From Micromonospora sp. Llam0 (GTDB taxonomy: Bacteria; Actinomycetota; Actinomycetes; Mycobacteriales; Micromonosporaceae): a stretch of 64,000 bases of DNA. The position numbers and the translations under genes were made by a program. The notes beneath the pieces are model-generated. The model ran no database searches, was not told the DNA's origin, and saw only the letters and a program-made list of their open reading frames with translations. The stretch spans positions 62,001 through 126,000 of the forward strand of contig NZ_RJJY01000001.1 in NCBI RefSeq assembly GCF_003751085.1, read 5' to 3'. Positions 9,658 through 63,576 of this stretch are shown piece by piece; position 1 is the first letter of the stretch, and each line of letters starts with the position of its first letter.

Positions 9658-9764
9658 CGCCGGTAGATTTAATTAGTGCTTAGATCTCTGGTTACGCGGC
9701 GTACATCTGAGCTCACCCCCGTTAGGCTCGCGCGGCAAGCTCGTGCCACAGGGGGGCTGTTTTC

Positions 9765-11504: not shown

Positions 11505-11625
11505 CCTGATAGGACGTTCAGCAGATCTGGTAGAAACCCGATCGGTCACCGTCCGATCGGTGGATGTCTGACCCGGCTGGGGTTGGCGCACGCTGTCTGA
11601 GACAATTTCCCATCTGGAGGGAAGC

Positions 11626-16056: not shown

Positions 16057-17347
16057 GCTGGCCCGGCACCCCCCGGCGCTGCCGATCTGGCCGCTGTGGC
16101 TGATGTTCGGCCTGGTGCCGGTCTGGTGGCTCAGCGGGCTGTTCTACTTCGGCTGGCCGGTGTTCGGCGCGCTGCTGCTGATCGTCATGTTCGTCCGGGG
16201 ACGGATCCCGTTGCCCGCCGGCGCCGGGCTCTGGCTGGCCTTCCTGGCCTTCGTGGTGGTCAGCGCCACCCAGTTGGCCGACGTCGGCGCGCTGCTCACC
16301 TTCACCTTCCGGTTGTTGTTCTACGTCACCGCGATCGTCGTCTGCTGCTACGTGTACACGATGGCGCGGGAGCGGGACGCGTTGACGGTGGTGCTCGGCC
16401 CGCTGTGCGCCTTCTTCGTCGCCCTGGTGCTGCTCGGCTGGCTCGGCCTGCTGATGCCCCGGTTCGGCATGGTCACTCCGTTCGAACTGGTGTTACCGGG
16501 TGGATTGTCCGGCAACCCGTTCATCCGGGACATGGTGCACGCCCAGGCCACCGAGTACAGCGCCCGCTCGACCAATCCGATCTTCCGGCCGGCGGCCCCG
16601 TTCGCCTACACCAACACGTACGGCAGCACATTCGCCATCACCCTGCCGGCGGTGGTGGCCTGCCTGCTGCTCGGTGCCCGGGGCCCGGCCCGGACGGTCC
16701 TGCTGGTCGCCCTGCCGTTGTCGCTGCCGCCGGCGTTCCTGACCCTCAACCGGGGCATGTTCCTCAGCCTCGGCGTCGGGCTGGCCGTGCTCGGCCTGCG
16801 GGCCGCGGCCCGGGGCAACGTCAAGGCGTTGGCGTCCATGCTCGGGATGTTGGCCGTCGGCGGGCTGGTCACCCTGTTCATTCCGATCGGCGAGCTGATC
16901 GAGCGCCGGGTGAGTGTCAGCGACACCAACACCGACCGGCTGTCGCTCTACCTGGAGGTGCTGCGCTGGGTCCAGCGGTCGCCGGTGCTCGGTTTCGGCG
17001 CACCGGTGCAGGTCGACACGGTCACCGCCGACGCGCCGATCGGCACCCAGGGCCAGGTGTGGGCCGTGCTGTTCAGCCACGGCGTTCCGGCGCTGGTCTG
17101 CTTCATCGGCTGGTTCGTGATCGTCGGGCTCCGCTGCTGGCCGGCCCGCACGGCGGCCGCGCAGTGGCTCTCCGTCGTGCCGCTGATCGGCCTGGTCCAG
17201 CTGCCCTTCTACGGCCTGGTCAACCAGAACCTGACTGCGATCTTCTACGTCGCCGGGGTGGCGTTGGTGCTCGTCGACCGGGAACGTCCGGGCCGTCCGC
17301 CCGGTCAGCGTCCAGCCCCGCAGCGTCTGGCCGGGGCCGTACGGTGA
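16049..17347 (+). CDS. O-antigen ligase/polymerase (Wzy-like) membrane protein
   Basis: 432 aa, GTG at 16049, overlapping the previous stop by eight bases. About 10-12 hydrophobic helices with a large extracytoplasmic loop between about 150 and 200 (PGGLSGNPFIRDMVHAQ). The Wzy_C/O-antigen ligase signature is seen around FLTLNRGMFLSL and the following helices, with a second loop VSVSDTNTDRLSLY typical of the family. It would polymerise flipped repeat units outside the membrane. Sequence among these enzymes is poorly conserved, so polymerase versus ligase cannot be decided. Confidence 0.78.
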   Translation: MVELARHPPALPIWPLWLMFGLVPVWWLSGLFYFGWPVFGALLLIVMFVRGRIPLPAGAGLWLAFLAFVVVSATQLADVGALLTFTFRLLFYVTAIVVCCYVYTMARERDALTVVLGPLCAFFVALVLLGWLGLLMPRFGMVTPFELVLPGGLSGNPFIRDMVHAQATEYSARSTNPIFRPAAPFAYTNTYGSTFAITLPAVVACLLLGARGPARTVLLVALPLSLPPAFLTLNRGMFLSLGVGLAVLGLRAAARGNVKALASMLGMLAVGGLVTLFIPIGELIERRVSVSDTNTDRLSLYLEVLRWVQRSPVLGFGAPVQVDTVTADAPIGTQGQVWAVLFSHGVPALVCFIGWFVIVGLRCWPARTAAAQWLSVVPLIGLVQLPFYGLVNQNLTAIFYVAGVALVLVDRERPGRPPGQRPAPQRLAGAVR

Positions 17348-18843
17348 CCGCGGCCACCGACCAGCGGGAGACCCGGCGCAGCGCCCGCAGCGGCGCCATC
17401 GGGCTGGCCGGCGCGGCGGTCAGCGGGCTGTTCGGCTTCGTCCTCGCGGTGGTCATCACCCGCGGCTACGGGCCGACCGGCGCGGGCGCGTTCTTCGCCG
17501 CCGTCGGACTGCTCACCGTGGCCACCGCGGTCTGCACACTGGGGGCCGAGACGGGGCTGCTCTGGGCGTTGCCCCGCCGCCGCACCGGCGCCACCGGGGA
17601 TGCCGCCCGGATGCTGCCGGTGGCGTTGCTGCCGCCGCTGGCGTTCGCCATCGTGGTGGCCGTCGTCGGGCTGCTGGTCGCGCCGCAGCTCGCGGTCGGC
17701 CTGTTCGATCGGGCGAGCACGGACACCGTACGCCTGGTTCAGCTCTGCGCGGTCGGGTTGCCCGTGCTGGTCGCCACCGGTCTGATGCTCGCGGCGGTAC
17801 GCGGGGTCCGACCGATCGGCGGCTACGTGGCGGTGCAGTTCTTCCTGCTGCCGATCGGCCGGCCGGTGCTGGTCGGCCTCGCCGCGCTGGCCAGCGGCGC
17901 GGTGCTGCTCGGGCTGGCCGGCTGGCTGGTGCCGGCGCTGGCCGCCCTGCTGGTCTGCGTCGGTCTGGTCGCCGGGCCGCTCGGTCTGGGGCGCGGCGCC
18001 CGGCTGCGGGCCGGGTCGGCGCACTGGCGTGACTTCTGGCGGTTCGCGCTGCCGAGGGCCGGCTCGGCCGCCATCGACGCCGGCAGCATGTGGATCGGGG
18101 TGCTGCTGGCGGTGGCGCTGGCCGGGCAGGTCGAGGCGGGTATCTTCGGCGCGGTCGGTCGGTACATCCTGGCCGGGCAGCTCGCCCTGCAGGGGCTGCG
18201 GGTCGCGGTCGCGCCGCAGCTGTCCCGGCTGCTCGGCGCGGACCGGCCGGCCGAGGCGGCGGCGGTGCACCGGCAGACCACCAGTTGGGCGATCGTGCTC
18301 TCCTGGCCGGTCTATCTGCTGCTGGCGGTCTTCGCACCGGGTTTACTGAGCATCTTCGGGCCGGAGTTCGCCGCCGGTGCCACGGCGATGACGGTGCTGG
18401 CCGTCGCGATGCTGGTGAACATCGCGGTCGGTAACGTGCAGACGTTGCTGTTGATGAGCGGCCACAGCGGCCTGCATCTGGTGGCCACGCTGGTGAATCT
18501 GACGGCCACGGTGTCGTTGGCGTTCTGGCTGGTCCCCCGGCACGGGGTGCTCGGCGTGGCGGTGGCCTGGGCCACCGGGATCGTGCTGGAGAACCTGATC
18601 GCGGCGACCGCCGCCCGGCTGGTGGTCGGGCAGCCACTGGTGGACCGGTCGGTGTCGGTGGCGGCGGCGGCGACGCTGGCCGGTGTCGGGGCGGTCAGTG
18701 TGGTCGCGGTCGCCGCGGCCGGCCGGGACGTGGCCGGCCTCGGTACCGCGTTGGCCCTGGTCGGCGCGGTCGTGATCGTAGTGTCGGCGCTGCCGGGTGT
18801 GCGGCGCCGGGTATGGCGCAGCGTCAGACAGAGAGGTGGGTGA
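17344..18843 (+). CDS. Polysaccharide flippase (Wzx/MATE-like, MOP superfamily)
   Basis: 499 aa; GTG at 17344 overlaps the upstream stop (GTGA). The frame is open much further upstream, through the polymerase gene, but that part is a shadow. Twelve to fourteen hydrophobic segments are visible, starting GAIGLAGAAVSGLFGFVLAVV, with the Wzx-like N-terminal ITRGYGPTGAGAFFAAVGLL. It would move undecaprenyl-linked repeat units across the membrane for the Wzy-like polymerase encoded next door. Confidence 0.83.
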   Translation: MTAATDQRETRRSARSGAIGLAGAAVSGLFGFVLAVVITRGYGPTGAGAFFAAVGLLTVATAVCTLGAETGLLWALPRRRTGATGDAARMLPVALLPPLAFAIVVAVVGLLVAPQLAVGLFDRASTDTVRLVQLCAVGLPVLVATGLMLAAVRGVRPIGGYVAVQFFLLPIGRPVLVGLAALASGAVLLGLAGWLVPALAALLVCVGLVAGPLGLGRGARLRAGSAHWRDFWRFALPRAGSAAIDAGSMWIGVLLAVALAGQVEAGIFGAVGRYILAGQLALQGLRVAVAPQLSRLLGADRPAEAAAVHRQTTSWAIVLSWPVYLLLAVFAPGLLSIFGPEFAAGATAMTVLAVAMLVNIAVGNVQTLLLMSGHSGLHLVATLVNLTATVSLAFWLVPRHGVLGVAVAWATGIVLENLIAATAARLVVGQPLVDRSVSVAAAATLAGVGAVSVVAVAAAGRDVAGLGTALALVGAVVIVVSALPGVRRRVWRSVRQRGG

Positions 18844-50261: not shown

Positions 50262-51578
50262 TCAGGCCTGCGGGTCCGAGCTGGTCCCGGACCCGCCGGC
50301 GGCACCGCCCGGCGTCGACTCCGTCGACTCCGGCTCGGTCGTCGGCGGCTCGTACGGCAGGGCGCTGCCTTCGACGAGCTCGTCCCAGCTGAGGTTCCAC
50401 ACGGTCCAACCGTTGCCGTTGGCGAGCTGCACCTCGGTGCCCTTGACCGTGACCGGGTCACCGACCCTGGTCTGGTTGAACAACCACTTGGCGTTGTCCA
50501 TCGACATGTTGATGCAGCCGTGTGACACGTTGCGTACCCCCTGGTCGGCCACCGACCACGGGGCGGCGTGGATGAACTCGCCACCCCAGGTCAGCCGCTG
50601 GGCGTACTCGATGTCCGTCCGGTAGCCCTCCTCCGGACCCAGCTCCTCGTACGTGTCGAAGACGGTCTCCTTCAGCTTCTCCATCACGATCATGGTGCCG
50701 CTGGAGGAGGGCGTCTTCGGCTTGCCGAGACTGATCGGGATCTCCTTGATCGTCTCGCCGTCCTTGGTGACCACCATCGTCTTGCTGGCGTTGTCCGCCG
50801 TCATCACCAGCGCCGCACCGACCTCGGCGTCCACGGTCAGGTCGTTGCGGCCGTACCAGCCGTCGCCCATCGGCAGGCCACCGGTCTGCGCCTTGTAGAA
50901 CAGCTGGGTGCCGGCCTGCCAGAACTCGCGTGGCCGGAACTGGACCTCGGTGGGGCTCACCCAGTACCAGATGCCCTCCTGGGCGGGCTCGGTCTCGACG
51001 CTCAGGCGTCGCTGCACGTCGTCGCGGTAGTCCTGCGGGATGTCCCGGCTGAACCGCAGGATCAGCGGCATCGCGACACCCACCACGTTGCCGTCGCCCA
51101 GGAAGCTGGACACCCGTACCTGATTGCCCGGCTGGGCCATCGTCCGGAAGTTGTGGCTGGCCGTGGTGGTCTCGCCGTCGTCGCCGGTCACCGTCACCGT
51201 CGCCGTGTACGCGGCGTCGTACTCCAACTGCCCGTCCGGCAGGAAGACGGTGCCTTCGGCGTCGACCTCGCCCGGCACCGGGTTGCCGTCGGCGTCGGTC
51301 AACTCCACCGTTGTCTGCGCCGCGTCGGCGGTGGTGAACGTGATCGCCGTCGACGCGGGCACGTCGGTGGCGTCGGCGGCCGGCTCGGTGATCGTCGCCT
51401 GGGCCTGTGGGCTTGGCTCGGCCCCCGTACCGCCCTGCCAGGTGGGAGCGTCACCGGCGCGAGTGCAGGCGCCGGTGAGGGCGAGCGCGGCGGCGAGCGC
51501 GACGGCCGTGACAACCCGCGGTACGGGCGGTCGCGCCCGCCCGGCGCGCGGCTTTACCTGAAAGCGGCTGACTCGCAT
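50262..51578 (-). CDS. L,D-transpeptidase lipoprotein (copy 1)
   Basis: 438 aa, ATG at 51578 with GAGGGG upstream. Lipobox LTGAC at about residues 26-30 indicates lipid anchoring. Two Ig-like domains (about 60-230) precede a YkuD catalytic domain. The active-site motif is HGCINMS, with Ser-His-Gly-Cys and upstream His in EFIHAAPW. A W-rich CBM-like tail (NGWTVWNLSWDELV) follows. It forms 3-3 cross-links in peptidoglycan, like mycobacterial LdtMt2. It is tandem with a paralogue downstream in the window. Confidence 0.93.
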   Translation of the reverse strand: MRVSRFQVKPRAGRARPPVPRVVTAVALAAALALTGACTRAGDAPTWQGGTGAEPSPQAQATITEPAADATDVPASTAITFTTADAAQTTVELTDADGNPVPGEVDAEGTVFLPDGQLEYDAAYTATVTVTGDDGETTTASHNFRTMAQPGNQVRVSSFLGDGNVVGVAMPLILRFSRDIPQDYRDDVQRRLSVETEPAQEGIWYWVSPTEVQFRPREFWQAGTQLFYKAQTGGLPMGDGWYGRNDLTVDAEVGAALVMTADNASKTMVVTKDGETIKEIPISLGKPKTPSSSGTMIVMEKLKETVFDTYEELGPEEGYRTDIEYAQRLTWGGEFIHAAPWSVADQGVRNVSHGCINMSMDNAKWLFNQTRVGDPVTVKGTEVQLANGNGWTVWNLSWDELVEGSALPYEPPTTEPESTESTPGGAAGGSGTSSDPQA

Positions 51579-51801
51579 GATCCCCTCACGAAGTTTCGGT
51601 CCCCGGATCCCATCGTCCAGCAAAGACGCGATGGGGCAACTCCCGGGTTCGTGCCTCAACGTACGCAACATCGACACGGCTGACCGATATTTCCCGGATC
51701 ATCCGGTCCGTTCGGTCAGCCGTGTCTCATTCGTCCGTAGTTGGCAGTTATTCAGATGTCATACTGTGCCGATCCGACGCCGACCAGAACCACATCGACC
51801 G

Positions 51802-53082
51802 TCACCCTGACGTCGCTGTCGGTACCGGAGCCGGCGTCGTCGGCGCCGGTGAAGCGGCCCCTGCCGGCTGCAGATCGGCCGGCACCGGCAACGCACTACC
51901 TTTGACGAACTCGTCCCAGGTGAGGTTCCAGGCCGTCCAGCCATTGCCGTCCGCCAACTCCCGCTCGGTGCCCTTGACCGTGATCGGATCACCGACCTTG
52001 GTCTGGTTGAACAGCCACTTGGCGTTGTCCATCGACAGGTTGACGCAACCGTGTGACACGTTGCGTACCCCCTGGTCGCCCACCGACCACGGGGCGGCGT
52101 GGATGAACTCGCCACCCCAGGTGATCCGCTGGGCGAACGAGATGTCCGTCCGGTAGCCCTCCTCCGGGCCCAACTCGGCGAAAGTGTCGAAAACGGTCTG
52201 TTCCTGCTTGTCCATCACCACCATGGTGCCGCTCGACGACGGCGTACTCGGCTTGCCGAGACTGACCGGCATCTGCTTGACCAGCTCGTCGTTCTTGAAC
52301 ATCGACAGCTGCTTGGTGGCGTTGTCGACCTCCACGGTCACCTTGTCACCGATCTTCGCGGTGGCGCCCCGGTCCATGTCCCCGTACCGGCCGTCACCGG
52401 TCGGGTGACCGTCCAGCGCGATCCGGGTGGTCACCGTCGTGCCGGCCTGCCAGAAGTCCGGAGCCCGGTAGAAGGCCTGGGTGCCGTTGGCCACCCAGTA
52501 CCAGGTGCCCGGCTGCGGCGGGTCGGTCTTGACGAACATCCGCTTCTGGACGCTGGCCCGCTCCTGCTCCGGGATGCCGGGGAAGAACTCGACCACCACC
52601 GGCATCGCGACTCCGTACGTCCGTCCGTCGAACAGGTAGAGGCCGGTTCCGGTCTGCGACCCGGACTTGCCCATCGTGCTGAACGACGTGGTCTTCGTCT
52701 CCTCCTCCCCGGTGCTGCTGGTCGCGACGACGGTCGCCGTGTACTGCTTCTGATTCTTGAGTGGTTTGTCCGGCACCCAGGCGGTGCCGTCGTGCCGCAT
52801 ACTGCCGCTGACCTCGCCGCCACCGTCCTCGACGAGGGTCACCGAGGTGACCTCCCCGCCGCTGACCGTGGTGCCGATCTCCGTACTGATCGGCAGGTTC
52901 TTCGCGTCGGCCTTCGGCGCGATGGCGAACTCGAACGGCTCCGGCGAAGGTGTCGGACTCGCCGTGGCCACCTGGCCGTCGACGAATCGTGGCGTCTTGT
53001 CCGATCCACACCCTGCCAGTGCCGCCGGTGCGATGACTGCCAGTGTCACCGCGACCGACCAACCCCTCCTGACCTTGTGCAT
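51802..53082 (-). CDS. L,D-transpeptidase lipoprotein (copy 2)
   Basis: 426 aa, ATG at 53082. Lipobox ALAGC at about residue 24. Two Ig-like domains, then a YkuD domain with HGCVNLS and EFIHAAPW, and the same NGWTAWNLTWDEFV tail as its neighbour. The N-terminal halves of the two copies are diverged, but the DNA around the active site is nearly identical (50470-50600 versus 52000-52130), including third codon positions. Each has its own promoter gap; 51579-51801 is AT-richer and carries that of copy 1. Confidence 0.93.
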   Translation of the reverse strand: MHKVRRGWSVAVTLAVIAPAALAGCGSDKTPRFVDGQVATASPTPSPEPFEFAIAPKADAKNLPISTEIGTTVSGGEVTSVTLVEDGGGEVSGSMRHDGTAWVPDKPLKNQKQYTATVVATSSTGEEETKTTSFSTMGKSGSQTGTGLYLFDGRTYGVAMPVVVEFFPGIPEQERASVQKRMFVKTDPPQPGTWYWVANGTQAFYRAPDFWQAGTTVTTRIALDGHPTGDGRYGDMDRGATAKIGDKVTVEVDNATKQLSMFKNDELVKQMPVSLGKPSTPSSSGTMVVMDKQEQTVFDTFAELGPEEGYRTDISFAQRITWGGEFIHAAPWSVGDQGVRNVSHGCVNLSMDNAKWLFNQTKVGDPITVKGTERELADGNGWTAWNLTWDEFVKGSALPVPADLQPAGAASPAPTTPAPVPTATSG

Positions 53083-53244
53083 GCCAGTCCCCGTTCCTTG
53101 TTCCGTCCCTGCCGACATCGTGCATCACCCGCCATGCCCTTCGTGCCTGATCCGGAAGGGTGCCAGATCCGCGCACCCGGGCAGGTCCGCCGGACAGACG
53201 GCTCGTTACCGGCAACTGGTTGGAAGCTGGACGGCCGGACATGC

Positions 53245-53268: not shown

Positions 53269-53344
53269 GCGCCGCTAGCTCAACTGGCAGAGCAGCGGAC
53301 TCTTAATCCGCGGGTTGTAGGTTCAAGTCCTACGCGGCGTACCA
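53269..53344 (+). tRNA. tRNA-Lys (CUU)
   Basis: Full cloverleaf: acceptor GCGCCGC/GCGGCGT, anticodon stem GCGGA/TCCGC with loop CTCTTAA (CUU), T arm GTAGG-TTCAAGT-CCTAC, discriminator A and encoded CCA. Accessory genes begin directly after it. Confidence 0.97.
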
Positions 53345-53391: not shown

Positions 53392-53544
53392 GTCGTACGT
53401 CGTACCGCCGGACGGGTGCTCGCCGGGCGCTCGTGAGCCGTTGGACCGGTCGGCCGCTGGTGGGACAGCAGCAGCATTGACGGGACGTTCACCCCGACCC
53501 ACTGCCGGGCTCGTCAAACGGGTGGATGCCGGGCTGGGATAGTG

Positions 53545-54195
53545 ATGAAGGTGAGCCCTGGATCCGCTGCGTCGCCTGAGCTTGTCATCTTCGACTGCGA
53601 CGGGGTGCTGGTTGACAGCGAGCCGATCGTTGCTCGGGTGCTCACCGAGTGGATGCGACACCTCGGGGTTCGGATCACCTATGAGGAGTGCGCTCGGGAG
53701 TTCGTGGGGCTGGCGCAGGAGGTGGCGGCGCAGCGAATCGCCGACCGTCTCGATGGCGAGGTGCCAACGGGCTGGTTCGACGGGCTCACCGCTGCGGTTG
53801 ACGCCGCGTTGCGGGCCCAGGTTCGGCCGGTGCCGGGCGTCGCGCAGGTGCTCGAACGGCTCAAGGTCCCATTCTGCGTGGCGTCGAACGGCCGGCCAGC
53901 CAAGGTCGACTTGACGCTGAGCGCGAGTGGCCTGGCGAGATACTTCGACGGGCGGATCTTTACTGCCTCGCAGGTCGCCCGAGGCAAGCCGGCCCCTGAT
54001 CTGTTTCTGCTGGCGGCGTCCCGGATGGGCGTACAGCCTGAACGGTGCGTGGTGGTCGAGGACAGCGAGGCCGGCGTTGCAGCCGGCCTGGCTGCAGGGA
54101 TGCGGGTTCTGCGGTACGCCTCGGACGGATCCCGGACGGGCTCCACCGAGGTATTCCACAGCATGGATGGCCTACCGCGTTGCTTGGGCCGGTGA
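53545..54195 (+). CDS. HAD-superfamily phosphatase (beta-phosphoglucomutase/phosphoglycolate type)
   Basis: 216 aa, ATG at 53545. HAD motif I VIFDCDGVLVDSEP, motif II VASNGR, motif III GKPAPD and motif IV VVEDSEAGVAAG. The helical cap between I and II is of class I. Substrate cannot be read; sugar phosphates are usual for this branch. It is the first gene after tRNA-Lys. Its base composition is somewhat less GC-rich than the housekeeping genes. Confidence 0.88.
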   Translation: MKVSPGSAASPELVIFDCDGVLVDSEPIVARVLTEWMRHLGVRITYEECAREFVGLAQEVAAQRIADRLDGEVPTGWFDGLTAAVDAALRAQVRPVPGVAQVLERLKVPFCVASNGRPAKVDLTLSASGLARYFDGRIFTASQVARGKPAPDLFLLAASRMGVQPERCVVVEDSEAGVAAGLAAGMRVLRYASDGSRTGSTEVFHSMDGLPRCLGR

Positions 54196-54276: not shown

Positions 54277-55296
54277 ATGGGGTCGACGGCGCGTAAGGTT
54301 TCGCTGACTGGTATCAAGCCGACCGGTGAACCACATCTGGGCAACTACATTGGCGCGATCCTTCCCGCACTGAAGTTGGTCGATGACTATGAGTCCCTGT
54401 ACTTCATCGCGGACCTACATGCGCTGACGACGATCCGTGACCGTGATCTGTTGCGGCACTACACCCGTTCGGTGGCCGCGACGTGGCTCGCGGCCGGACT
54501 CGATCCGGACCGCACCACCTTCTATCGCCAGTCGGACATCCGGGAGATCCCTGAGCTGACCTGGGTGCTGTCCTGTCTGACCGGTAAGGGGTTGATGAAC
54601 CGGGCGCACGCGTACAAGGCGGCGCGCGACCGTAACCGTACGGCGGGCAAGGAGGATCTGGACGCCGGTGTGAACATGGGCCTGTTCAACTACCCGATGC
54701 TGATGGCGGTCGACATTCTCATCATGGACGCCGATGTGGTGCCGGTTGGCCGTGACCAGGTCCAGCACGTCGAGTACGCAGCTGACATCGCAGGTGCCTT
54801 CAACGCCGTCTACGGCGATCGGTTCAGGCTGAAGATCCCAGCTGCCGTCATACCGGATGAAGGCTCGGCGCAGACCCTGCCCGGCGTCGACGGGCGGAAG
54901 ATGAGCAAGTCCTACGGCAACACGATCCCGCTGTTCGAGTCCGAAGCCGGTCTGCGCAAGATGATCCGGCGGATCCCGACTGACAGCGTGCCCCTCGAGG
55001 AGCCGAAGGATCCCGACTCGGCTGCGGTCTTCACGCTGCTGGAGCGGTTCGGCGAGGCGGACGTTGTCGCCGAGACCCGAGCACGGCTGTCGGCCGGTGG
55101 GATGGGTTGGGGCGAGGTGAAGGCCCAGCTCACCGACGCGTTGACCGCCCAGTTCGCGCCGCTGCGGGAGCACTACGAGGCGCTGATGGCACCTGGCGGC
55201 GAACTGGACGACCTCCTCGCGCACGGCGCGGACAAGGCCCGTAAGCAGACCCGACCGTTGCTGGAGCGGGTGCGTGACGCCGTCGGCATCGGGTAG
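54277..55296 (+). CDS. trpS: Tryptophanyl-tRNA synthetase
   Basis: 339 aa, ATG at 54277, seven bases after TAATGT. A complete class I TrpRS: PTGEPHLGNYIGA (HIGH as HLGN, 20-23), the tRNA/Trp pocket region GKGLMNRAHAYK, VPVGRDQVQHVE and the GRKMSKSYGN loop (208-212). It ends convergently 22 bases from the flavoprotein gene of the five-gene operon. Actinomycetes often carry a second TrpRS that resists Trp-analogue antibiotics. Its accessory surroundings, next to a TrpRS-like paralogue, fit that idea but do not prove it. Confidence 0.93.
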   Translation: MGSTARKVSLTGIKPTGEPHLGNYIGAILPALKLVDDYESLYFIADLHALTTIRDRDLLRHYTRSVAATWLAAGLDPDRTTFYRQSDIREIPELTWVLSCLTGKGLMNRAHAYKAARDRNRTAGKEDLDAGVNMGLFNYPMLMAVDILIMDADVVPVGRDQVQHVEYAADIAGAFNAVYGDRFRLKIPAAVIPDEGSAQTLPGVDGRKMSKSYGNTIPLFESEAGLRKMIRRIPTDSVPLEEPKDPDSAAVFTLLERFGEADVVAETRARLSAGGMGWGEVKAQLTDALTAQFAPLREHYEALMAPGGELDDLLAHGADKARKQTRPLLERVRDAVGIG

Positions 55297-55318: not shown

Positions 55319-56350
55319 TCAAACGAGTGCGTCGACTACCTGATCGGCGCAGTGCCAGGCGGTTGTCCATTTGCCGGGTAGCGCGACCAGCAGGTTGGCC
55401 GCTGAGGTCCAGCCGATTGGTGGCTTCCTGAGGTCGACGACCAGGCTCGATGGATCGGCCTCCGGGCTGGCTGGCTCGCACACGGTGCCCCACAGCAGGC
55501 TGAGGTCACGGTCGGGCCGTTGAACTCCGCGCAGGTCGAGGGCGGTCTGGAGCCGGGCATGTTCTTCCTCGGCCGTTGCGTACCGGCCGTTGACTGCGGG
55601 CAGGCCGACGCGGGTGCCTCCGAGATCTGGACTGAGGGCGAGGAGGTCGCCGTCCAGCCAGTAGGTCAGGCTCCGTACGCGGGTGCCGGCCTGCCGTCCC
55701 CAGGCGATGCGCCGGGTGCGGAGCGTGTTCCGGATCCCCGCTCGGGCCAACAGTCGCGGTGTACCGGCGCCGGCTGCCAGGACCAGCATGCGTGCCCGTG
55801 GGGCGGCACGCGGTGCGTTCTGTGCGAGCGAGACGAGAGAGCTGGCCGGATCTCGGCGTAGGGTGACCTCCCGTCGCAGTACCGGCGGTACGCCTGCGGT
55901 GTGAGCCAACGTGACGAGGCTGGTGTGCAGTGCGGGTAGGTTCACGCTGTAATCCGGGATGCGGAAGGCGGCGGCCGGTGGGGGAAGAGAGCCGCTGGCC
56001 ACGGGAGCCGCTTCCGAGGCGGTGATGCCGATCCGGTTCCAGGCCTTCAGATACCGGTCGACGGCATCGGCCGAGTGGAACAGGGCCAGGCCGGTGGCGG
56101 CTCCGATCCGTACGGGCCGGGTCAGGTCGTACCAGCGACTCCGCTCCCGCCAGCAGGCCTCGCTGAGCGAGGGCAGCACCGGGGCGTAGACGGCACCCGA
56201 ATGCAACTGCCCGAAGTTGGCGAGCGACGCCCCAGCCTGCCCGTCACCGACGCACCGCACCCGCAGACCACGACGTGCCGCCGCCACGGCGATAGCCAGA
56301 CCGCAGAATCCTGATCCGACGATGAGAGCGTCAAGGATGTCATCTGGCAC
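55319..56350 (-). CDS. FAD-dependent oxidoreductase (DAO-like), fifth gene of operon
   Basis: 343 aa; GTG at 56350, overlapping the SDR-like gene by 11 bases. The longer upstream frame is a shadow. N-terminal Rossmann motif DALIVGSGFCGLAIAVAAARRG (cited by GSGFCGLA), then ASLANFGQLHSGAVYAP, the FAD/substrate region of glycine/D-amino-acid oxidase-like proteins. MLVLAAGAGTPRLLARAG closes the FAD domain. The C terminus, KWTTAWHCADQVVDAL, is typical of DAO folds. It probably oxidises an amine or amino-acid-derived intermediate. The partner acceptor is unknown. Confidence 0.8.
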   Translation of the reverse strand: MPDDILDALIVGSGFCGLAIAVAAARRGLRVRCVGDGQAGASLANFGQLHSGAVYAPVLPSLSEACWRERSRWYDLTRPVRIGAATGLALFHSADAVDRYLKAWNRIGITASEAAPVASGSLPPPAAAFRIPDYSVNLPALHTSLVTLAHTAGVPPVLRREVTLRRDPASSLVSLAQNAPRAAPRARMLVLAAGAGTPRLLARAGIRNTLRTRRIAWGRQAGTRVRSLTYWLDGDLLALSPDLGGTRVGLPAVNGRYATAEEEHARLQTALDLRGVQRPDRDLSLLWGTVCEPASPEADPSSLVVDLRKPPIGWTSAANLLVALPGKWTTAWHCADQVVDALV

Positions 56351-57239
56351 GCGCCGCCTCGTTCCCCTTTGATGGAGCTGCCTCGGACCGTTCATCGATG
56401 ACGGCGATGCGATGGCGGTCGGCGAATCGGCGTAGCAGCCCGCGCGGTGCCAGGTGGTGGTCGACGCGGAGTCGGATGCGTCGGGGCCAGAGGCGCAGCC
56501 GGCTGCGGGCCGCGGCCCGGTGGGCCTGCATCGAGTCGCGGTCCAGCAGGAGGCTGCGCAGATGGGCCAGGATCGTCGAGCCAGCAACGGAGATGAAGCC
56601 GGCTTCGGCATTGATCGCTGGGTCTGGAACGACCGGCACCAGAATGGCGAGATCAGGTCGGACCGGTGTCGTCGCCGCCGCTGCGACGATCTTTTGGGCT
56701 GCCTGGTCGAAGGACCAGACCGGTTGAGGGGTCGGTTCGTCGACCGGCTGTGGCGTCAGCTGGGGTAGCAGCAACGCCATGCCGGGGATGCCGGATCGGG
56801 CGTATCTGACGACCTGTCGGCGTTTCGCGAGCCCGTAGGGCGTCTGGTACAGACCGGGTGCCAGCACCGCCGTCGTGCTCGCGGCGATCAGCGTGATCTC
56901 CCGACCGCTGGCGAGAAGTTGATCGCACAGGTGTAACACGGTTTCGGTCGCGCCGTGCACGCTGCGTCGCATCGACTGCACCCCGCTGCGGTCGAGAACG
57001 CTGTCTACGACGCAGACCCGACCGCGAGAGGCGGCAAGGATGGCCGTCGTGACGGCAACCCGGGCGCGGTGCTCGGCAACCGTCAGATCCGCGAGAATCC
57101 AATGCGCGTCGGCGGATGCCTGGTCCGCTGGGCGGCTCCGTGCGACGGCGACGACGGTGAAACCGGCTGCGACGGCTAGCGGCGCAATGGCACGACCAAG
57201 GCGCCCGGACGCGCCGAGCAGGACGAGGAGTGGGCTCAT
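56340..57239 (-). CDS. SDR-like NAD(P)-dependent protein, fourth gene of operon
   Basis: 299 aa; ATG at 57239 overlaps the stop of the synthetase-like gene (ATGA). The nucleotide motif GASGRLGRAIAPLA is of the extended SDR type. The catalytic-type Tyr-x3-Lys appears in YQTPYGLAKRRQ, with IAASTTA as the Ser-bearing strand. The C-terminal 100 residues are basic and Arg-rich (RLRLWPRRIRLRVD) and not recognised. It is likely a reductase or epimerase acting on the operon product. Confidence 0.72.
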   Translation of the reverse strand: MSPLLVLLGASGRLGRAIAPLAVAAGFTVVAVARSRPADQASADAHWILADLTVAEHRARVAVTTAILAASRGRVCVVDSVLDRSGVQSMRRSVHGATETVLHLCDQLLASGREITLIAASTTAVLAPGLYQTPYGLAKRRQVVRYARSGIPGMALLLPQLTPQPVDEPTPQPVWSFDQAAQKIVAAAATTPVRPDLAILVPVVPDPAINAEAGFISVAGSTILAHLRSLLLDRDSMQAHRAAARSRLRLWPRRIRLRVDHHLAPRGLLRRFADRHRIAVIDERSEAAPSKGNEAARAR

Positions 57240-58228
57240 CGCGTGCACCACTGCCAGGTCTCGGCGAACTGGGTGAAGGAGCGGCAGTACTCTCGGCGTG
57301 CCTGGCGCCAGGGGCCTGGCCGGAGAAGCCGATCGGCGAACGCCTCACGGGCGCGGGTGATGTCCGTAGCGTCCCAGCCGCTGCTCAACTCGATGGCCGA
57401 CAGCAGCGGTGCCTGGCTGGCCTCGTCGTCGCGCATCACCCGGTCGTTGATCTCGGCCGGAGTCATGTTCAGATGGATGCTCGACGCCGGGATGCTCTTC
57501 GACATCTTCGGGTAGCCGGCAAGTCCTTCAAGGACCCGGAAGTACAGGGCGCCGATCCGGCCCTGCCAGCCGAGACTCAAATCGTCGGCGCCGGCCTGCC
57601 GGTGCAGCACCAGCCGGGCCAGGTCGGTGAAGTAGGACTCTTCCACGCCGGAGACCATGAGGACGTCGCCTGCGCCGCCCTCGAAAGGGCCGAGAATGTC
57701 GGCGACCGTGTACAGCGAGTCGACGACCACTCCGGTCTCACTGCCGAGCAGCCCGTGGTCGGCGTACAGCTCCAACAGGCTTTCCCGGTGTTCCTGGAAG
57801 TCGGCCCGAGACAGGTAACGGGCTACCCGCCCGGCGCGGATCAGGTTGGCGTGGTCAAGGTGTGACCGCAGTTCGGCCGCGTCCCGGTCCAGGCCGATCG
57901 CGACGAGGAACGCGAGCATCTGATCCCTGACCTGGAGCAGCGTCTGCCAGGGCACGTTGCGGGAGTTCCACGCGCCGAGGTCCGAGATGACGACTGTCAT
58001 CGGCGCGCCGAGTCGGCGTTGCAGCTCAACGATGCCGAGCATGACCGACAGGGTGCCGGCGGTCGGTGCGTTCGTTGGGCCGAAGCCGGTCACGACCGAC
58101 ATCGACTGGCGCTTGTACGGGTCCAGGACCGTGAGCGCGTTGTCGGCGTGGGTGAATCGGGCTGCGGTTGGTCCGAGCTCTTCGGCCAAGACCTCGGCCG
58201 ATCGCAGATCTATTGACGCTGGTGGCAT
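57236..58228 (-). CDS. TrpRS/TyrRS-like protein with altered HIGH motif, third gene of operon
   Basis: 330 aa; ATG at 58228, GGTAGGGGA upstream. The fold reads as a class Ic synthetase: VVTGFGPTNAPTAGTLSVML holds the HIGH position, but reads TAGT (56-59), so both histidines are replaced by Thr. The second signature is intact, GYPKMSKS (241-245). The substrate strand is VSGVEESYFTDLARL instead of the usual GxDQ. The C-terminal helical domain is present, about the length of TrpRS. It may activate an amino acid or act on an unusual substrate. Canonical TrpRS is encoded nearby, so this is a paralogue with a separate task. Confidence 0.78.
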   Translation of the reverse strand: MPPASIDLRSAEVLAEELGPTAARFTHADNALTVLDPYKRQSMSVVTGFGPTNAPTAGTLSVMLGIVELQRRLGAPMTVVISDLGAWNSRNVPWQTLLQVRDQMLAFLVAIGLDRDAAELRSHLDHANLIRAGRVARYLSRADFQEHRESLLELYADHGLLGSETGVVVDSLYTVADILGPFEGGAGDVLMVSGVEESYFTDLARLVLHRQAGADDLSLGWQGRIGALYFRVLEGLAGYPKMSKSIPASSIHLNMTPAEINDRVMRDDEASQAPLLSAIELSSGWDATDITRAREAFADRLLRPGPWRQARREYCRSFTQFAETWQWCTR

Positions 58229-58239
58229 GTCTGGTTCCC

Positions 58240-59262
58240 CTACCTGAGCTCGGTGAGCATGGTCAGCAGCCGCATGGCGTTGCCGGAGCGGCGAGCGTGA
58301 CGAACCCGGCTGCTCGCTTCGTCGATGTCGACTCCGCTTGCTCCCACGACGAGCGCGGCGTTCAGCTCGACCAGCATGGTGGCGGCCGTGTCGTCTCCAG
58401 GGGCGAGCGCAGCGGTGACGAGCGCGGCGTTCCCGGCATGTGTGGGTTGGTGCGCGACGGACTGACGCCATGAGGACGTCGGCTCAGCGCCTTGGTGGAT
58501 GCCGCAGGTGATGAGGCCGTCGGTGAGACGGGCCAGCCGTGCCTGACCGACGCCGGCGTATTCGTCGACGGTCTCGCCGGGGGACAGCTCCGTGCAGGTG
58601 ACGACGCCGAGGGCGAGCTCTGGCCTGATTCTCTGTAGCGCTGCGGCCGCGAGCGTGACGTCGCGGTGCGCCAGGCCGAGCAGGTAGCTGCTCGCGCGGA
58701 CGCAGAGAGCGCCGACTGGCATGAAGAAACTTGCCGGATTCAGGGTGTCGAAGACGTCGTCGTACCGGTCTGCGTAGCGAGGGCAAAAGACTGGGTAGCC
58801 GACGAAAGCGATGCCGTAACGCTCCAGCACTTCAGGAATGTCCGTTGGCTGGCCGACCGGTCGTATGCCGAGGAGATCCAGGACGTCGGCGGCTCCGGAG
58901 ACTGCGGATACCGATCGCGAGATTCCCTTGACGACGCGGGTTCCGGCGGCGGCGGCGAGGATCCCAGCCGCAGTGCTGACGTTGAAGGTCTTGTACTGCT
59001 CCTTTCCGCTGCCGGCAACGACGACAGTGCCCTCGGGTACGTCGACCGGCCGGCTGGCGTAGTTGGCGAGCACCGGGTCGAACTGCGTGATCACCGTCCA
59101 CCACTCGGACAGTTCCGCCGGGCCGAGGCGGTCGGCGCGGAGCAGGTCGGCGCACCACCGCCGCCATTGCATGTTCGCCGATGGTGATTCGTCCCGAAGA
59201 AACGCGTGCAGCTGATCGGCGGACCATCTGTCAGACGGCGCGGCAAGAGACGGGGCGCTCAT
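58240..59262 (-). CDS. TrpD-like (class III phosphoribosyltransferase fold) protein, second gene of operon
   Basis: 340 aa; ATG at 59262 overlaps the preceding stop (ATGA). The central segment matches anthranilate phosphoribosyltransferase. GSGKEQYKTFNVST (84-97) stands for GTGGDGxxTFNIST, and KGISRSVSAVSGAADVLDLLG (cited by SRSVSAVSGAADVL, 115-128) for KHGNRSVSSKSGSADVLEALG. The later CPRYADRYDDVFDTLNPASF replaces the HPAMK..R..LG.RTIFN stretch, so PRPP and anthranilate contacts are altered. It may be a phosphoribosyl or nucleoside-related transferase of new specificity. Confidence 0.75.
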   Translation of the reverse strand: MSAPSLAAPSDRWSADQLHAFLRDESPSANMQWRRWCADLLRADRLGPAELSEWWTVITQFDPVLANYASRPVDVPEGTVVVAGSGKEQYKTFNVSTAAGILAAAAGTRVVKGISRSVSAVSGAADVLDLLGIRPVGQPTDIPEVLERYGIAFVGYPVFCPRYADRYDDVFDTLNPASFFMPVGALCVRASSYLLGLAHRDVTLAAAALQRIRPELALGVVTCTELSPGETVDEYAGVGQARLARLTDGLITCGIHQGAEPTSSWRQSVAHQPTHAGNAALVTAALAPGDDTAATMLVELNAALVVGASGVDIDEASSRVRHARRSGNAMRLLTMLTELR

Positions 59263-59504
59263 TTGGTCCACCACGAGCTCGTCGAGCCAGCCGTGCGGGC
59301 ACCGGACAGCTCAGGACGAGACGCTCCAGGCGTACGCCGGGGCAGGTGTGCAGACAGGCTGAACACCCGTGCCGCCTGTTCGTGCGCCGCGCAGGGTCCG
59401 AGCGTTCCGCATGCCAGGCACTTCCCATCGGCGCACGAAACCACGTGCTGCGTCAGGGCGGCCTGCGCCTCCTCCAGCTGCCCGCCGCCGAGATACGTCG
59501 CCAC
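59259..59504 (-). CDS. Small Cys-rich (probably zinc-binding) protein, first gene of operon
   Basis: 81 aa; GTG at 59504 with GGAGG just upstream. The core carries His20, Cys24, Cys29, Cys32, Cys38 and His41 (HVVSCADGKCLACGTLGPC), a zinc-ribbon-like C-x4-C-x2-C-x5-C pattern. The C-terminal part is Arg/Ser-rich and looks disordered. Its stop overlaps the TrpD-like start, so it is part of the operon. A similar small protein is encoded at 63.6-63.9 kb. Confidence 0.72.
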   Translation of the reverse strand: MATYLGGGQLEEAQAALTQHVVSCADGKCLACGTLGPCAAHEQAARVFSLSAHLPRRTPGASRPELSGARTAGSTSSWWTK

Positions 59505-59676: not shown

Positions 59677-59696
59677 CCGGTGTCAGCCGACACCGG
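59677..59696. promoter_or_regulatory. 20-base palindrome between operon and NUDIX gene
   Basis: CCGGTGTC-AGCC-GACACCGG is a perfect inverted repeat in the gap between the divergent operon (start 59504) and NUDIX gene (start 59745). It lies about 36-55 bases upstream of the NUDIX -10, a position suiting a regulator such as the XRE protein encoded downstream. Confidence 0.5.
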
Positions 59697-59744: not shown

Positions 59745-60308
59745 ATGAGTACCGGTGCTCGGCGGGCAAGTGAGTGGACCATCCACGACGAGCGGGTCAT
59801 CGACGACACGAGGCGTGCCGTGCTGAGCGTCGCCGACGTCGAACTACCCGACGGTGTCCGGTTCGAGCAGTACGTACTCAGAGTGCCGTCCGCCGCGATG
59901 GTGATCGTCCTGGACGACGCCGACCGCGTGCTGATGATGTGGCGGCACCGGTTCATCATCGACCGGTGGGTCTGGGAGCTGCCGGGCGGCTATCTTGACC
60001 ACGACGAGGACCCAGCCGTCTGCGCGGCGCGGGAGGTCGAGGAGGAGACCGGCTGGCGGCCCAGGACCATGGAGCCGCTGCTGGGCTTCCAGCCCATGGT
60101 CGGCACGATCGACCAGCAGAACATCATTTACCTGTCCCGAGGGGCCGACCCCACGGGCACCGCGCCTGACATCAACGAGACCGCGCGAATCGGCTGGATC
60201 CCGCTGGCCGAGGTGGAGCAACGAATCCACGCCGGGGAGATCGTCGGTGCGGGGTCTGTCTCCGGTCTGCTCGCCGTGCTGCTGGCCAAAGCGACAGGGC
60301 GAATTTAG
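59745..60308 (+). CDS. NUDIX hydrolase
   Basis: 187 aa, ATG at 59745. The NUDIX box is complete: GGYLDHDEDPAVCAAREVEEETGW, cited by GGYLDHDE and REVEEETGW, with the GX5EX7REUXEEXGU pattern. An ADP-ribose pyrophosphatase-like beta-strand (QYVLRVPSAAMVIVLDD) precedes it. Its stop overlaps the end of the convergent XRE gene by four bases. Such enzymes are common partners of XRE/TPR regulators in actinomycete accessory regions. The substrate is unknown. Confidence 0.92.
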   Translation: MSTGARRASEWTIHDERVIDDTRRAVLSVADVELPDGVRFEQYVLRVPSAAMVIVLDDADRVLMMWRHRFIIDRWVWELPGGYLDHDEDPAVCAAREVEEETGWRPRTMEPLLGFQPMVGTIDQQNIIYLSRGADPTGTAPDINETARIGWIPLAEVEQRIHAGEIVGAGSVSGLLAVLLAKATGRI

Positions 60309-61681
60309 GCGGCTCGGAGTAGCGGCCGTACGCGCACAGAGAACTCCTGCACCGTCGGCAGCCCGGCGTACGGCGTGAGGCGGTCCGCGAGAGTGGCGAG
60401 GTAGGCGCGCGCCCGTTCGGAGCTCAGACTCTCAGCGGCTTGTGCTGCCTGCACCCCCACCGCGCCGGCTTGCTCCGGCTCACCGGACTGCACGTGGGCA
60501 AGCGCCAACAATGCCAGGTTGAACTGCTTGCCGCGGGCATAGGCGGTGCCGTCCATCTCCAACGACCGCACCGCGAACCGGGCCGCGAGCTTGCCTTGGC
60601 CGAGCGCGGCGAAGCAGTGTCCGAACTTGGCCGAGAGATACGCTTCGTCGAAGTAGCCGATCCACTGTGGGTTGCTCGTGTTCTCCGCGCGGTCGAAGGC
60701 GCGTTCAGCGCGGTCGAGCGCTGCCGTACACGCCGCCTCGTCACCGCCCACGGCGTGGCCCTGCGCCTCCAGCACCGCAGATTCCGCCTGGATCGCGGCC
60801 ATCCCGGACTCGGCCGCCGTGCGACCTGCGGCACGCGCCAAGTCGACCGCCTCTGCCGACGCCCCCAGGTAGGCCGCCTGGTGACTCATCGCCGCCAGGA
60901 TCTCCGCGCCCAGCGGGCGATCGCCAGCGGCTGTGGCGAGCCGTAGCGCCTGGACCATGTACCGCTGCGCCAAGCCGTTCAGCCCAGCATCGTACGAGGC
61001 CCAGCCCGCGAGCTGGGTGGCCTCGGCAGCCGCCGAGTACAGCGCGATACCGGTACGGGCGTCGTACCGACCACGCAAGAGCGGAGCCACCTCGGTATCA
61101 AGGAACCGGACCAACCCGTCACGGACGTGGCCGCCACCATAACGGTTGTCGAGCGACCGGTAGACGCCGGAGATGTGCCGAATGGTTTCGACGTGAGGTT
61201 CACCGACGAGTCTGTCACCGTGGCCGACGGGCTCCTCTTCGAGCCGAGCGGTCAGCCAGCGGAGCGCCGGCGTCAGGAACGCCGCCGCGTTGAATCCCGT
61301 ACCTATCAGGAGATCTCGCCGTTGCATATCTCCCCGCCACAGCTCTGCCGCGACCTCCGCGCCGTGTCGCCAGTCCTGCGGAAAGTCTAATCCGACCGCC
61401 GCGTCGGGGCCCGCCTCAGCGGGACCCACGACCAGTTCGCCTCTGTCAGCCGACACCGCGCTCACCAAGGCGGACAACTCGCCGTTGGCACCGAGCGCCG
61501 TGTCGAGCAGCGCCACCACGGACGCGCTGGGCCGCTTGCCGCCGGCCTCGAGATCCCAGAGGTATCCGTGGGAGCAGTGGACCAGCTGCCCGAGCCGGCG
61601 AAGCGACAGGCCTCGCTCCTCGCGTAGCGACCTCAAGCGCGGCCCGAAGGCCGGATCGACGACAACGAGCTGTCGCGGCAT
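60305..61681 (-). CDS. XRE-family regulator with TPR domain
   Basis: 458 aa, ATG at 61681 with GAGGAG upstream. N-terminal XRE HTH: FGPRLRSLREERGLSLRRLGQLVHCSHGYLWDLEAG, cited by LREERGLSLRRLG and SHGYLWDLEAG. A linker of about 70 residues leads to a long helical TPR-like region (YMVQALRLATAAGDRPLGAEIL, AFDRAENTSNPQWIGYFDEAY). This is the tetratricopeptide XRE type seen beside secondary metabolic genes in streptomycetes. It may read a small peptide or metabolite and act on the palindrome at 59677-59696 (inference). Confidence 0.9.
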   Translation of the reverse strand: MPRQLVVVDPAFGPRLRSLREERGLSLRRLGQLVHCSHGYLWDLEAGGKRPSASVVALLDTALGANGELSALVSAVSADRGELVVGPAEAGPDAAVGLDFPQDWRHGAEVAAELWRGDMQRRDLLIGTGFNAAAFLTPALRWLTARLEEEPVGHGDRLVGEPHVETIRHISGVYRSLDNRYGGGHVRDGLVRFLDTEVAPLLRGRYDARTGIALYSAAAEATQLAGWASYDAGLNGLAQRYMVQALRLATAAGDRPLGAEILAAMSHQAAYLGASAEAVDLARAAGRTAAESGMAAIQAESAVLEAQGHAVGGDEAACTAALDRAERAFDRAENTSNPQWIGYFDEAYLSAKFGHCFAALGQGKLAARFAVRSLEMDGTAYARGKQFNLALLALAHVQSGEPEQAGAVGVQAAQAAESLSSERARAYLATLADRLTPYAGLPTVQEFSVRVRPLLRAA

Positions 61682-62043: not shown

Positions 62044-63576
62044 TCAGCCGCTGGGGTTCAGGGCACGGATCTTCTGCCAGGCCTGGGTGTACTCGGCGGT
62101 GTGGGGGTGGTTGTCGGGCAGGCGGATGAGGCGCCGTCGGGCGGTGTGGACAAGCCGGGCGGGGATGCCGAGCAGTGTGGTGCGTAGGGTGTTCGGAGTG
62201 GCTCGGCGCAGGGTGTCGTGGTCGTTGACGGCGAGCAGGCGTAGCCAGGCGAGCAGGTCGGCGGCGATCGCGACGATGATGGTCCAGGCCTGGTTGAACG
62301 TGAAGTAGTAGGACGGCAGCCGGCGTAGTCCGAGGTTTTTCGCATCTTTGATCACGGTTTCCACTCCGGCGTGGTTGCGGTGGAACGCGTCGAGTTTCGG
62401 GTACTGCTGCCCGGGGATGTCGGTGGCGACGGCCTGGAACCGTTGACCACGTCGTTTCTCCTGCTCGCTGGCCTGTTTGCGGTGTTTCGGATGCAGCGGC
62501 TCGGTGCGGGCGGTGATCCGCATGCCGGCCGGCCAGCCGTCGGCGAGTTCCAGTAACCCGGTGATCTCGGTGGTGTACGCCCCTTTACGGACCTTGCCCG
62601 TAGGGGTGAGTGCGGGTACCCACACGTCGGCCGGGACCTGGCAGATCGCCTCGCGTACCGGGGCGGTGACGTCGAACCCGACGCTGTAATGCCAGGTGTA
62701 GCCGTGCTCGGCGGCCTCAGTCTTGATCCAGGCGAGCAGGTCCTTGGTGGCGCCGGCCCCGTCGGCCCGGAAGATGATCTGCCTGCGGTAGCGGGCCGGG
62801 ATCTGCGCGACCGCGTCAGCCAGCACCGTGAGGTGATCGGCGACGGTGTTACTGCCGGAGTTCCCGTCGCGTAGCAGGACGGTGAGCATCTCGCCGGTGT
62901 TCGCGACCGACACGATCAGCGGGTGGAGCCCGAAGATGTGTTTCTTGTAGGTGGGTGCCGCGCCCTGCTTGTCGGAGTGCGACTCGACCAGGGAGGCATC
63001 CACATCGATCACGATCTACCCGGTCCAGGTCTTGCCCGCCACCTGAAGCCAGGGGAAACCCTCTGGCCGGGCGGCCAGGGCGGCCCAGACCCGACGCCGG
63101 TGCACGGCCCGCGCGGTAGCGATCTTGTCCAGCATGGCCGCGTCGAGCTCCTCGACCACGCGCCAGGCGGTCACCGCGGTCGGGACCGGACCGCAGGCGA
63201 CGGCCGCCTGTTGCAGTACGCCGGCCGCGGCGGTGACCGATACCGCTCCCAGGCCAAGCCCGACCGCCAGGTCGGTCACGACCTGACCCCGGTCGTAGCC
63301 GGGGCTGAACCCGGTGCGATGCAACGCCTTCGACAGCACCGTGCGCAGTCCGGATTCCTCGGCCAGCAGCCGCAGCAGCGGAACCCCGGCCGTGGGCAGC
63401 AGCCCGGACACCGACCCGGACACCGCCAGCCCGACGGTCCACCGTGACGTGCGTTTCTCCAGCTCACGCCGACGCCGCAGCTCGACGGCACGCTTGTTCT
63501 TCTTCTGCAACCTGCCCGATGTTCTACGCTTCACTGCGAAGGTGCCGTTCCCCTGGACGATTGATGATCTTCTCAA
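62044..63576 (-). pseudogene. IS1380-family transposase, interrupted by an in-frame stop
   Basis: A 511-codon reading frame (start TTG at 63576, or GTG at 63534) with one amber TAG at 63018-63016. Both parts are in the same frame: ...QVAGKTWTG-stop-IVIDVDASLVESHSD.... The DDE core follows the stop (IDVDASLV, IIFRADGAGATKDLL, YVTFNQ-like YYFTFNQAW), with IS1380-type HRNHAGVETVIKDAKNLGL. The N-terminal half ends at the stop. A single G-to-A change (Trp TGG to TAG) would explain it. Without readthrough no full transposase is made. Ends and target duplication were not resolved. Confidence 0.85.

Follow-up and report, generated by a model that had tools for sequence, protein, structure and literature searches.

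What, if anything, is made by an operon that joins relatives of two tryptophan enzymes to two oxidoreductases? Such an operon lies at positions 55319 to 59504 of a 64,000-nucleotide stretch of the genome of Micromonospora sp. Llam0, the whole of which is called the window below. We propose that the locus is a compact, mobile biosynthetic cluster for a tryptophan-containing inhibitor of tryptophanyl-tRNA synthetase (TrpRS), in which an extra, convergent TrpRS gene would serve as the self-resistance copy; judged from sequence comparison, this reading has a probability of roughly two in three. A preliminary description had confined the operon to five open reading frames (ORFs); all five are real, but its coordinates omitted the true TrpRS gene at 54277-55296, which is conserved together with them and is the best clue to function. 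The operon, from its first gene to its last, and the extra TrpRS gene are as follows.

59259-59504, minus strand: small Cys-containing protein (ORF), first operon gene, optional
58240-59262, minus strand: TrpD-like transferase with the anthranilate phosphoribosyltransferase (AnPRT) fold (PF00591, 71 bits)
57236-58228, minus strand: TrpRS-like class Ic synthetase homologue (PF00579)
56340-57239, minus strand: SDR-like NAD(P)-dependent oxidoreductase (weak Epimerase and NAD_binding_10 matches, below cut-off)
55319-56350, minus strand: FAD-dependent DAO-family oxidoreductase (PF01266, 62.6 bits, above cut-off), last operon gene
54277-55296, plus strand: extra TrpRS (NF009207, 507.6 bits versus a cut-off of 479), convergent with the operon

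The extra TrpRS is a canonical enzyme by sequence, scoring above its model cut-off with intact HLGN and KMSKS motifs, and is 36% identical to the other TrpRS of its own genome (G000). Each of the 15 other TrpRS-bearing genomes checked likewise gave at least two TrpRS matches. Among 354 genomes of the family, the extra TrpRS was present in 16, comprising all 10 carriers of a cluster of the window's kind (type I below) and 6 of the 344 other genomes (hypergeometric probability 1e-15, uncorrected for relatedness or linkage). These six TrpRS-only genomes, all from one genus, lack a synthetase-like gene throughout the genome and a TrpD-like gene in the 18 kb surrounding TrpRS. DAO sequence adjoins TrpRS in all six, as a 3' fragment of only 32 to 112 residues in five of them and near full length in G244, where the SDR gene is truncated. 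The TrpRS gene itself is full length and free of stops in all six, and the ratio of nonsynonymous to synonymous substitution rates (dN/dS) was 0.07 to 0.12 in seven within-clade pairs of these genomes. Because the makers have been lost while TrpRS has been kept intact under purifying selection, the extra TrpRS is probably the producer's self-resistance copy: it is additional to a housekeeping synthetase, linked to the cluster, and retained after biosynthesis is gone.

The same pattern bears on another role, in which the extra TrpRS would exist solely to provide Trp-tRNA, which the TrpRS-like protein would consume in making a molecule without action on TrpRS. Supply of this kind has a precedent in ascamycin synthesis, where AcmD provides Ala-tRNA to AcmF according to PMC12945691, and in two loci, L016 and L020, TrpRS runs in the same direction as the operon. 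A purely supplying TrpRS would be expected to disappear jointly with the makers, however, whereas in 6 of the 16 TrpRS-bearing family genomes it is intact and conserved without them; moreover, supplying and resisting can combine, as for AcmD. We therefore regard supply in place of resistance as unlikely.

An indolmycin-type resistance change is not claimed for the extra TrpRS, in which the DLHA histidine is retained. Further TrpRS-related genes were seen in two loci. In L085 (G698:C1:1258000-1276000), a second TrpRS, equal in score to the cluster copy and about 51 kb from it, adjoins a DAO gene split across two frames, a partial duplication of the module; L086 (G724:C35:132000-151000) has two adjacent divergent TrpRS-related genes at 9271-11520, about 30% identical to the window TrpRS.

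The operon itself is tightly packed, as the preliminary description had it, and none of the five ORFs contains an internal stop; the five genes have four junctions, not five, of which three are overlaps and one is a gap. The Cys/TrpD-like and synthetase-like/SDR junctions are ATGA overlaps of 4 bases, 11 bases separate the TrpD-like and synthetase-like genes, and the SDR and DAO genes overlap by 11 bases if, as we assumed, DAO starts with the GTG at 56350. The families named earlier are also upheld, with PF00591, PF00579 and DAO above their cut-offs and SDR below its cut-off only. Around the operon and the extra TrpRS lie the following features, including the divergent NUDIX gene, palindrome and XRE/TPR gene already described, all of which are present by family match or by sequence.

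53269-53344, plus strand: tRNA-Lys(CTT), probable insertion hotspot bounding the module
53542-54195, plus strand: HAD-family phosphatase (PF00702/PF13419), preceding the extra TrpRS and a usual neighbor in Micromonosporaceae loci
59677-59696, no strand: operator-like palindrome CCGGTGTC-AGCC-GACACCGG in the divergent promoter region
59745-60308, plus strand: NUDIX hydrolase (PF00293), divergent from the operon
60305-61681, minus strand: XRE/TPR regulator of the NsdA family (NF053720, 342 bits versus a cut-off of 75)
62044-63012, minus strand: DDE transposase (PF13701, 142 bits), on the distal side of the module

The type I set comprises 14 distinct loci from three actinobacterial families: that of the window's own genome, those of two more genomes of the same genus and of other Micromonosporaceae, and those of Saccharopolyspora rosea, a Pseudonocardiaceae metagenome-assembled genome (MAG), Streptomyces bauhiniae and a Kitasatospora. 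TrpD-like, synthetase-like and SDR sequence was present in all 14, several copies being partial (the SDR in two loci). The co-occurrence of at least three operon genes elsewhere, anticipated in the preliminary description, is thus borne out, and lends good support to its proposal of an acquired small-molecule route. The extra TrpRS was found in 13 of the loci, DAO in 11 (broken in one), HAD in 8 (in more than one piece in two), NUDIX in 7 (one copy partial and only 47% identical) and XRE/TPR in 7 (one copy only 35% identical); DAO was not detected in the S. rosea or the MAG locus. The small Cys protein, for which Pfam and NCBIfam gave no match, is outside the core set, since it occurs in only 5 of the 14 loci, once as a partial copy; the zinc-ribbon character given to it in the preliminary description is thus no more than putative. 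Two loci are cut by contig edges, the MAG contig beginning inside the TrpD-like gene and L020 stopping after SDR. The synthetase-like gene is patchily distributed, occurring in 12 of the 354 family genomes (10 with type I, three with the type II clusters described below, one with both), in 3 of 394 genomes across the class and in 1 of 396 across the phylum, counts that each include the window's own genome.

Some of these loci are damaged, and the module could be read as decayed leftovers of tryptophan metabolism that are now functionless. Three of the 14 are disrupted by insertion or truncation: an inserted transposase gene with rve domains runs through SDR and DAO in G060, a transposase gene interrupts the TrpD-like gene of S. 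rosea, and only 19% of the TrpD-like gene remains in Salinispora fenicalii. Yet TrpD-like, synthetase-like, SDR, DAO and TrpRS are each covered to at least 90% by a single match in 9 of the 14 loci, from two families, and dN/dS between relatives is far below 1 for every gene tested (0.03 to 0.39, and 0.10 to 0.39 for the operon genes), leaving out the synthetase-like gene of G152 (the match ran past a stop; the ORF is intact) and the broken DAO gene of G060. Functionless leftovers are accordingly the least credible account that we considered. Decay in relatives, which the preliminary description had set against a working system, is therefore seen in the three broken loci and in the six further genomes reduced to TrpRS with an eroded operon, but the latter pattern, a reduced operon with TrpRS kept, supports the resistance role.

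The motifs of the TrpRS-like protein suggest that it departs from a normal synthetase. In NCBIfam it scores highest with a TrpRS model but stays far under the cut-off (PRK12285.1-2, 52 bits versus 451), and TIGR00233 gave 32.4 bits against a cut-off of 176.75. At the HIGH position the protein has TAGT, and KMSKS is retained; the altered motifs of the preliminary description are thus borne out here for HIGH but not for KMSKS. A profile search placed TrpRS 3a04 and several TyrRS (tyrosyl-tRNA synthetase) entries, all of which we take to be archaeal, as the nearest solved structures. A cyclodipeptide synthase identity was not indicated by Pfam, which at E values up to 1 returned only PF00579 and a weak DR2241 match. 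Database searches gave 354, 251 and 78 proteins without genomic context, and the best 120, 120 and 78 of them served to count motifs and to fill a few rows of the alignments. Among the 120 listed type I relatives, the HIGH position lies in a PT[N/D]APTA context in 119, and K[MI]SKS, as a strict pattern, is present in 107.

These counts bear on a tRNA-free version of our proposal, fully compatible with it, in which the synthetase-like protein would be an ATP-dependent Trp:amine ligase and the rest of the pathway would be unchanged. Mycothiol ligase is a precedent for a tRNA-free ligase derived from an aminoacyl-tRNA synthetase (aaRS). The retention of K[MI]SKS in most listed relatives fits such an activity, and class I aaRS paralogues have been proposed as direct peptide ligases in PMC2922099; on the other hand, both HIGH histidines are changed in type I proteins, arguing against normal adenylation. 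We consider this version possible, though somewhat improbable.

In the TrpD-like protein the changes are likewise selective. The AnPRT motifs with known roles are the GTGGD loop, the acceptor-site motifs and, at the metal and phosphoribosyl pyrophosphate site, DE and Lys. Alignment with the genome's own TrpD showed GSGKE in place of GTGGD, KG.S in place of KHGN, and no NF.LGPLTNP-like stretch. K112, D233, E234 and the N-S-T residues were invariant in 11 aligned TrpD-like sequences, in which GTGGD had become GSGK(E/K). An altered active site had been noted in the preliminary description; this is right for the GTGGD loop, but the DE and Lys of AnPRT are retained. Because Lys, N-S-T and DE are kept while the anthranilate-side motifs are altered, we infer that a phosphoribosyl-type donor site survives and that the acceptor differs from anthranilate. 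The likeness to anthranilate phosphoribosyltransferase thus consists in the PF00591 family and these retained residues; the window protein differs from TrpD in the loop and acceptor motifs, in scoring only 96 bits with TIGR01245 against a cut-off of 199.05, and in giving no match to PF02885.

A sister cluster, type II, carries an extra TyrRS. One lies in the same genome as the window, at C1:4660-4670 kb, with genes for TrpD-like, synthetase-like, two glycosyltransferase-like (one by weak matches), methyltransferase, alcohol dehydrogenase, HAD and kinase-like proteins; in the larger region taken as L031 (G000:C1:4653000-4672999), the kinase is APH-like and the cluster also has an XRE-type regulator. 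The type II set consists of five loci, in this genome, G059, G013, G884 and G944. Common to all five are genes for TrpD-like, synthetase-like, GT4-like, alcohol dehydrogenase and TyrRS proteins, and each TyrRS scores above the TIGR00234 cut-off; the synthetase-like match in G944 contains one stop codon. The identity of the extra aaRS follows cluster type: wherever a type I locus has one (13 loci) it is TrpRS, and in each of the five type II loci it is TyrRS. A weak leaning to the same amino acid is seen in the synthetase-like proteins, the best model being one for TrpRS in type I (52 bits) and one for TyrRS in type II (44.8 bits, closely followed by TrpRS models at 40.2). Given the extra TyrRS, type II clusters would act as type I clusters do, with tyrosine. 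One type II synthetase-like protein, P0209, is labelled Rhizobium rhizogenes and is 63% identical to an actinobacterial one, an apparent transfer across phyla; a guess that it lies on an agrocin plasmid was dropped, as no plasmid match was found.

From the observed gene content, motifs, amino-acid matching, retention pattern and mobility, the following reactions can be proposed for type I. The TrpD-like enzyme would move a phosphoribosyl-type group to a non-anthranilate acceptor, as its retained Lys, N-S-T and DE and its changed acceptor motifs suggest. The HAD phosphatase would then strip the phosphate, and SDR and DAO would oxidize or otherwise tailor the scaffold. The TrpRS-like protein would couple tryptophan to a scaffold amine, drawing either on Trp-tRNA, in the manner of AcmF and SbzA, or on Trp and ATP, in the manner of aaRS-derived ligases. 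The product would be a mimic of tryptophanyl-adenylate that blocks the normal TrpRS, and the extra TrpRS, whose genetic pattern is that described above, would sustain translation. Expression would be governed by the NsdA-type regulator acting at the conserved palindrome.

Several points weigh against this proposal. KMSKS is kept, so the sequence is compatible with adenylation by the synthetase-like protein, and the tRNA-dependent version of its chemistry is unproven. The phosphatase step is weak, because HAD, detected in no more than 8 of the 14 type I loci and in three of the five of type II, is fragmented in some and shows no significant similarity between the type I and type II proteins of the window's own genome. 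No transporter was found among the conserved genes, the flanks not being fully annotated for transporters. As to the extra TrpRS, it could instead feed the pathway with Trp-tRNA; the six TrpRS-only genomes share one genus and may be recent losers, and the selection measured on their TrpRS may partly predate operon loss. In G724 no TrpRS scores as housekeeping copies usually do, the others of that genome reaching 234 and 152 bits, and the extra TrpRS may have taken over as its main enzyme.

That the module is horizontally mobile, patchily distributed and variable in location is evident from sequence comparison. Five of five genomes of the same genus in which this place is without the module cease to match the window 84 to 130 bases past tRNA-Lys(CTT), at 53428-53474, which supports the island position given in the preliminary description. 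G093 is collinear with the window up to 61864, and in G060 the module lies at a different genomic place. The tRNA-Lys gene adjoins the module in L012/L060 and L059 and the TrpRS-only loci L080-L082, not L013 or L014, and is probably an insertion hotspot bounding the module. G105 and G034 contain an attachment-site-like second copy of the tRNA 3' end, 79 to 80% identical and about 3.5 kb away.

Second, partial copies of the tRNA-Lys 3' end, at about 8884-9000 in L102 and 8698-8805 in L105 and some 3.5 kb past the tRNA in these same-genus genomes, look like attachment sites of other elements. In L104 (G114), NUDIX and the 3' end of XRE at 1344-2354 are 94% identical to the window, a possible remnant; the 18.5 kb fetched there held no TrpD-like or synthetase-like gene. 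A plasmid origin was considered and rejected, since tblastn with one protein per synthetase-like type gave zero matches in 72,556 plasmid records; two Streptomyces plasmid records with a TrpD-like gene contain acyl-carrier/TrpA/TrpC-type clusters, with no synthetase-like gene annotated. Elsewhere in the window, two tandem L,D-transpeptidase genes (YkuD with Big_10) occupy 50262-53118, with two matches in 6 of 6 same-genus genomes searched, and AT skew is strong (-0.38) over about 2 kb at 16000-18000, where only weak short tandem repeats were seen.

Candidate regulatory sequence is conserved with the module. The palindrome core GTCAGC..TGTCAGCCGAC was nearly invariant in six aligned promoter regions, and exact TGTCAGCCGACA was found in five distinct loci; within the window the XRE gene contains another exact copy, at 61444. 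The number of palindromes in the window was not significant, 2 matches at up to one mismatch being reached by 7 of 100 shuffles.

An island beside tRNA-Lys and a transposase, with NUDIX and XRE (helix-turn-helix) proteins that have weak PADLOC matches, could also be a defense or nucleic acid-modifying island, and some TrpD-family proteins are reported to bind nucleic acids. However, no PADLOC model was matched at E 0.001 by any operon protein or by the extra TrpRS, and the sister clusters have, next to TyrRS, genes for methyltransferase, glycosyltransferase-like and alcohol dehydrogenase proteins, which typify biosynthesis. We consider a defense role very unlikely.

A close parallel to the proposed arrangement of inhibitor enzyme and resistant synthetase is the ascamycin cluster, in which, according to PMC12945691, AcmF, an AlaRS-like transferase, stands beside AcmD, an extra and more resistant AlaRS. 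Both systems place an aaRS-like protein that has lost residues of the activation site, here those of HIGH, next to a second, complete aaRS of matching amino acid. They differ in that AcmF and AcmD have the AlaRS (class II) fold and serve nucleoside sulfamate chemistry, while the window protein is class Ic and keeps KMSKS; the accessible portion of that source mentions no TrpD-like gene. The same text describes SbzA, the IleRS-like transferase of SB-203207/altemicidin, which resembles the present protein as a cluster-borne class I aaRS copy that transfers an aminoacyl group to a small molecule. SbzA, however, combines enzyme and resistance copy in a single protein and keeps HYGH, whereas two separate proteins are encoded here. 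Gene pairing of the AcmF/SbzA type is found, with TrpRS, in all but one of the 14 type I loci and, with TyrRS, in all five type II loci, the amino acid of the synthetase-like protein being presumed. MetRS-like paralogue ligases and cyclodipeptide synthases, described in the available part of PMC2922099, are class I aaRS-derived proteins that were likewise recruited to peptide-type metabolites; the MetRS-like genes differ in being paired with a cupin and a lysine monooxygenase, and that part of the source mentions no TrpD-like gene.

Known products offer further points of comparison. Indolmycin and chuangxinmycin are Trp analogues made by other enzymes, and SB-219383 contains Tyr. The first two are, like the predicted product, actinobacterial compounds that target TrpRS, and resistance to indolmycin has been attributed to an additional TrpRS; the portion of PMC7916415 available mentions no TrpD-like or synthetase-like gene for either, and terms SB-219383 a tyrosine analog. 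SB-219383 is a dipeptide TyrRS inhibitor from a Micromonospora strain (PMC9054317), and its Micromonosporaceae source and TyrRS target are those that type II clusters predict. It is thus the kind of compound that a type II cluster would make, although the link is a guess by analogy; no SB-219383 gene cluster was found in the literature searched.

It is conceivable, at somewhat less than even odds, that the two cluster types together represent an undescribed class of actinobacterial pathway. In this class, a TrpD-derived glycosyl-type transferase would be paired with a class Ic synthetase-derived enzyme whose HIGH motif has been rebuilt (TAGT in the Trp kind, HLAT-type in the Tyr kind) to make amino acid-matched inhibitors of TrpRS or TyrRS, each with a resistant synthetase; both kinds occur in one genome, and compounds like SB-219383, for which a route is missing, may come from the Tyr kind. 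No description of the TrpD-like/synthetase-like pair with an extra TrpRS or TyrRS was found among the papers listed by searches of the open-access literature, which is weak evidence of novelty, most subscription papers being outside the scope of these searches.

If our reading is correct, the TrpD-like and synthetase-like pair together with an extra TrpRS or TyrRS would provide sequence handles for finding translation inhibitors of a family so far hidden, the usual nonribosomal peptide synthetase or polyketide synthase markers being absent from its conserved genes. Subclass Ic would become the third aaRS subclass in which a synthetase-like enzyme works beside a resistant true synthetase. It would also become testable how a synthetase that loses HIGH is turned into a ligase or transferase and what role the TrpD fold plays without anthranilate.

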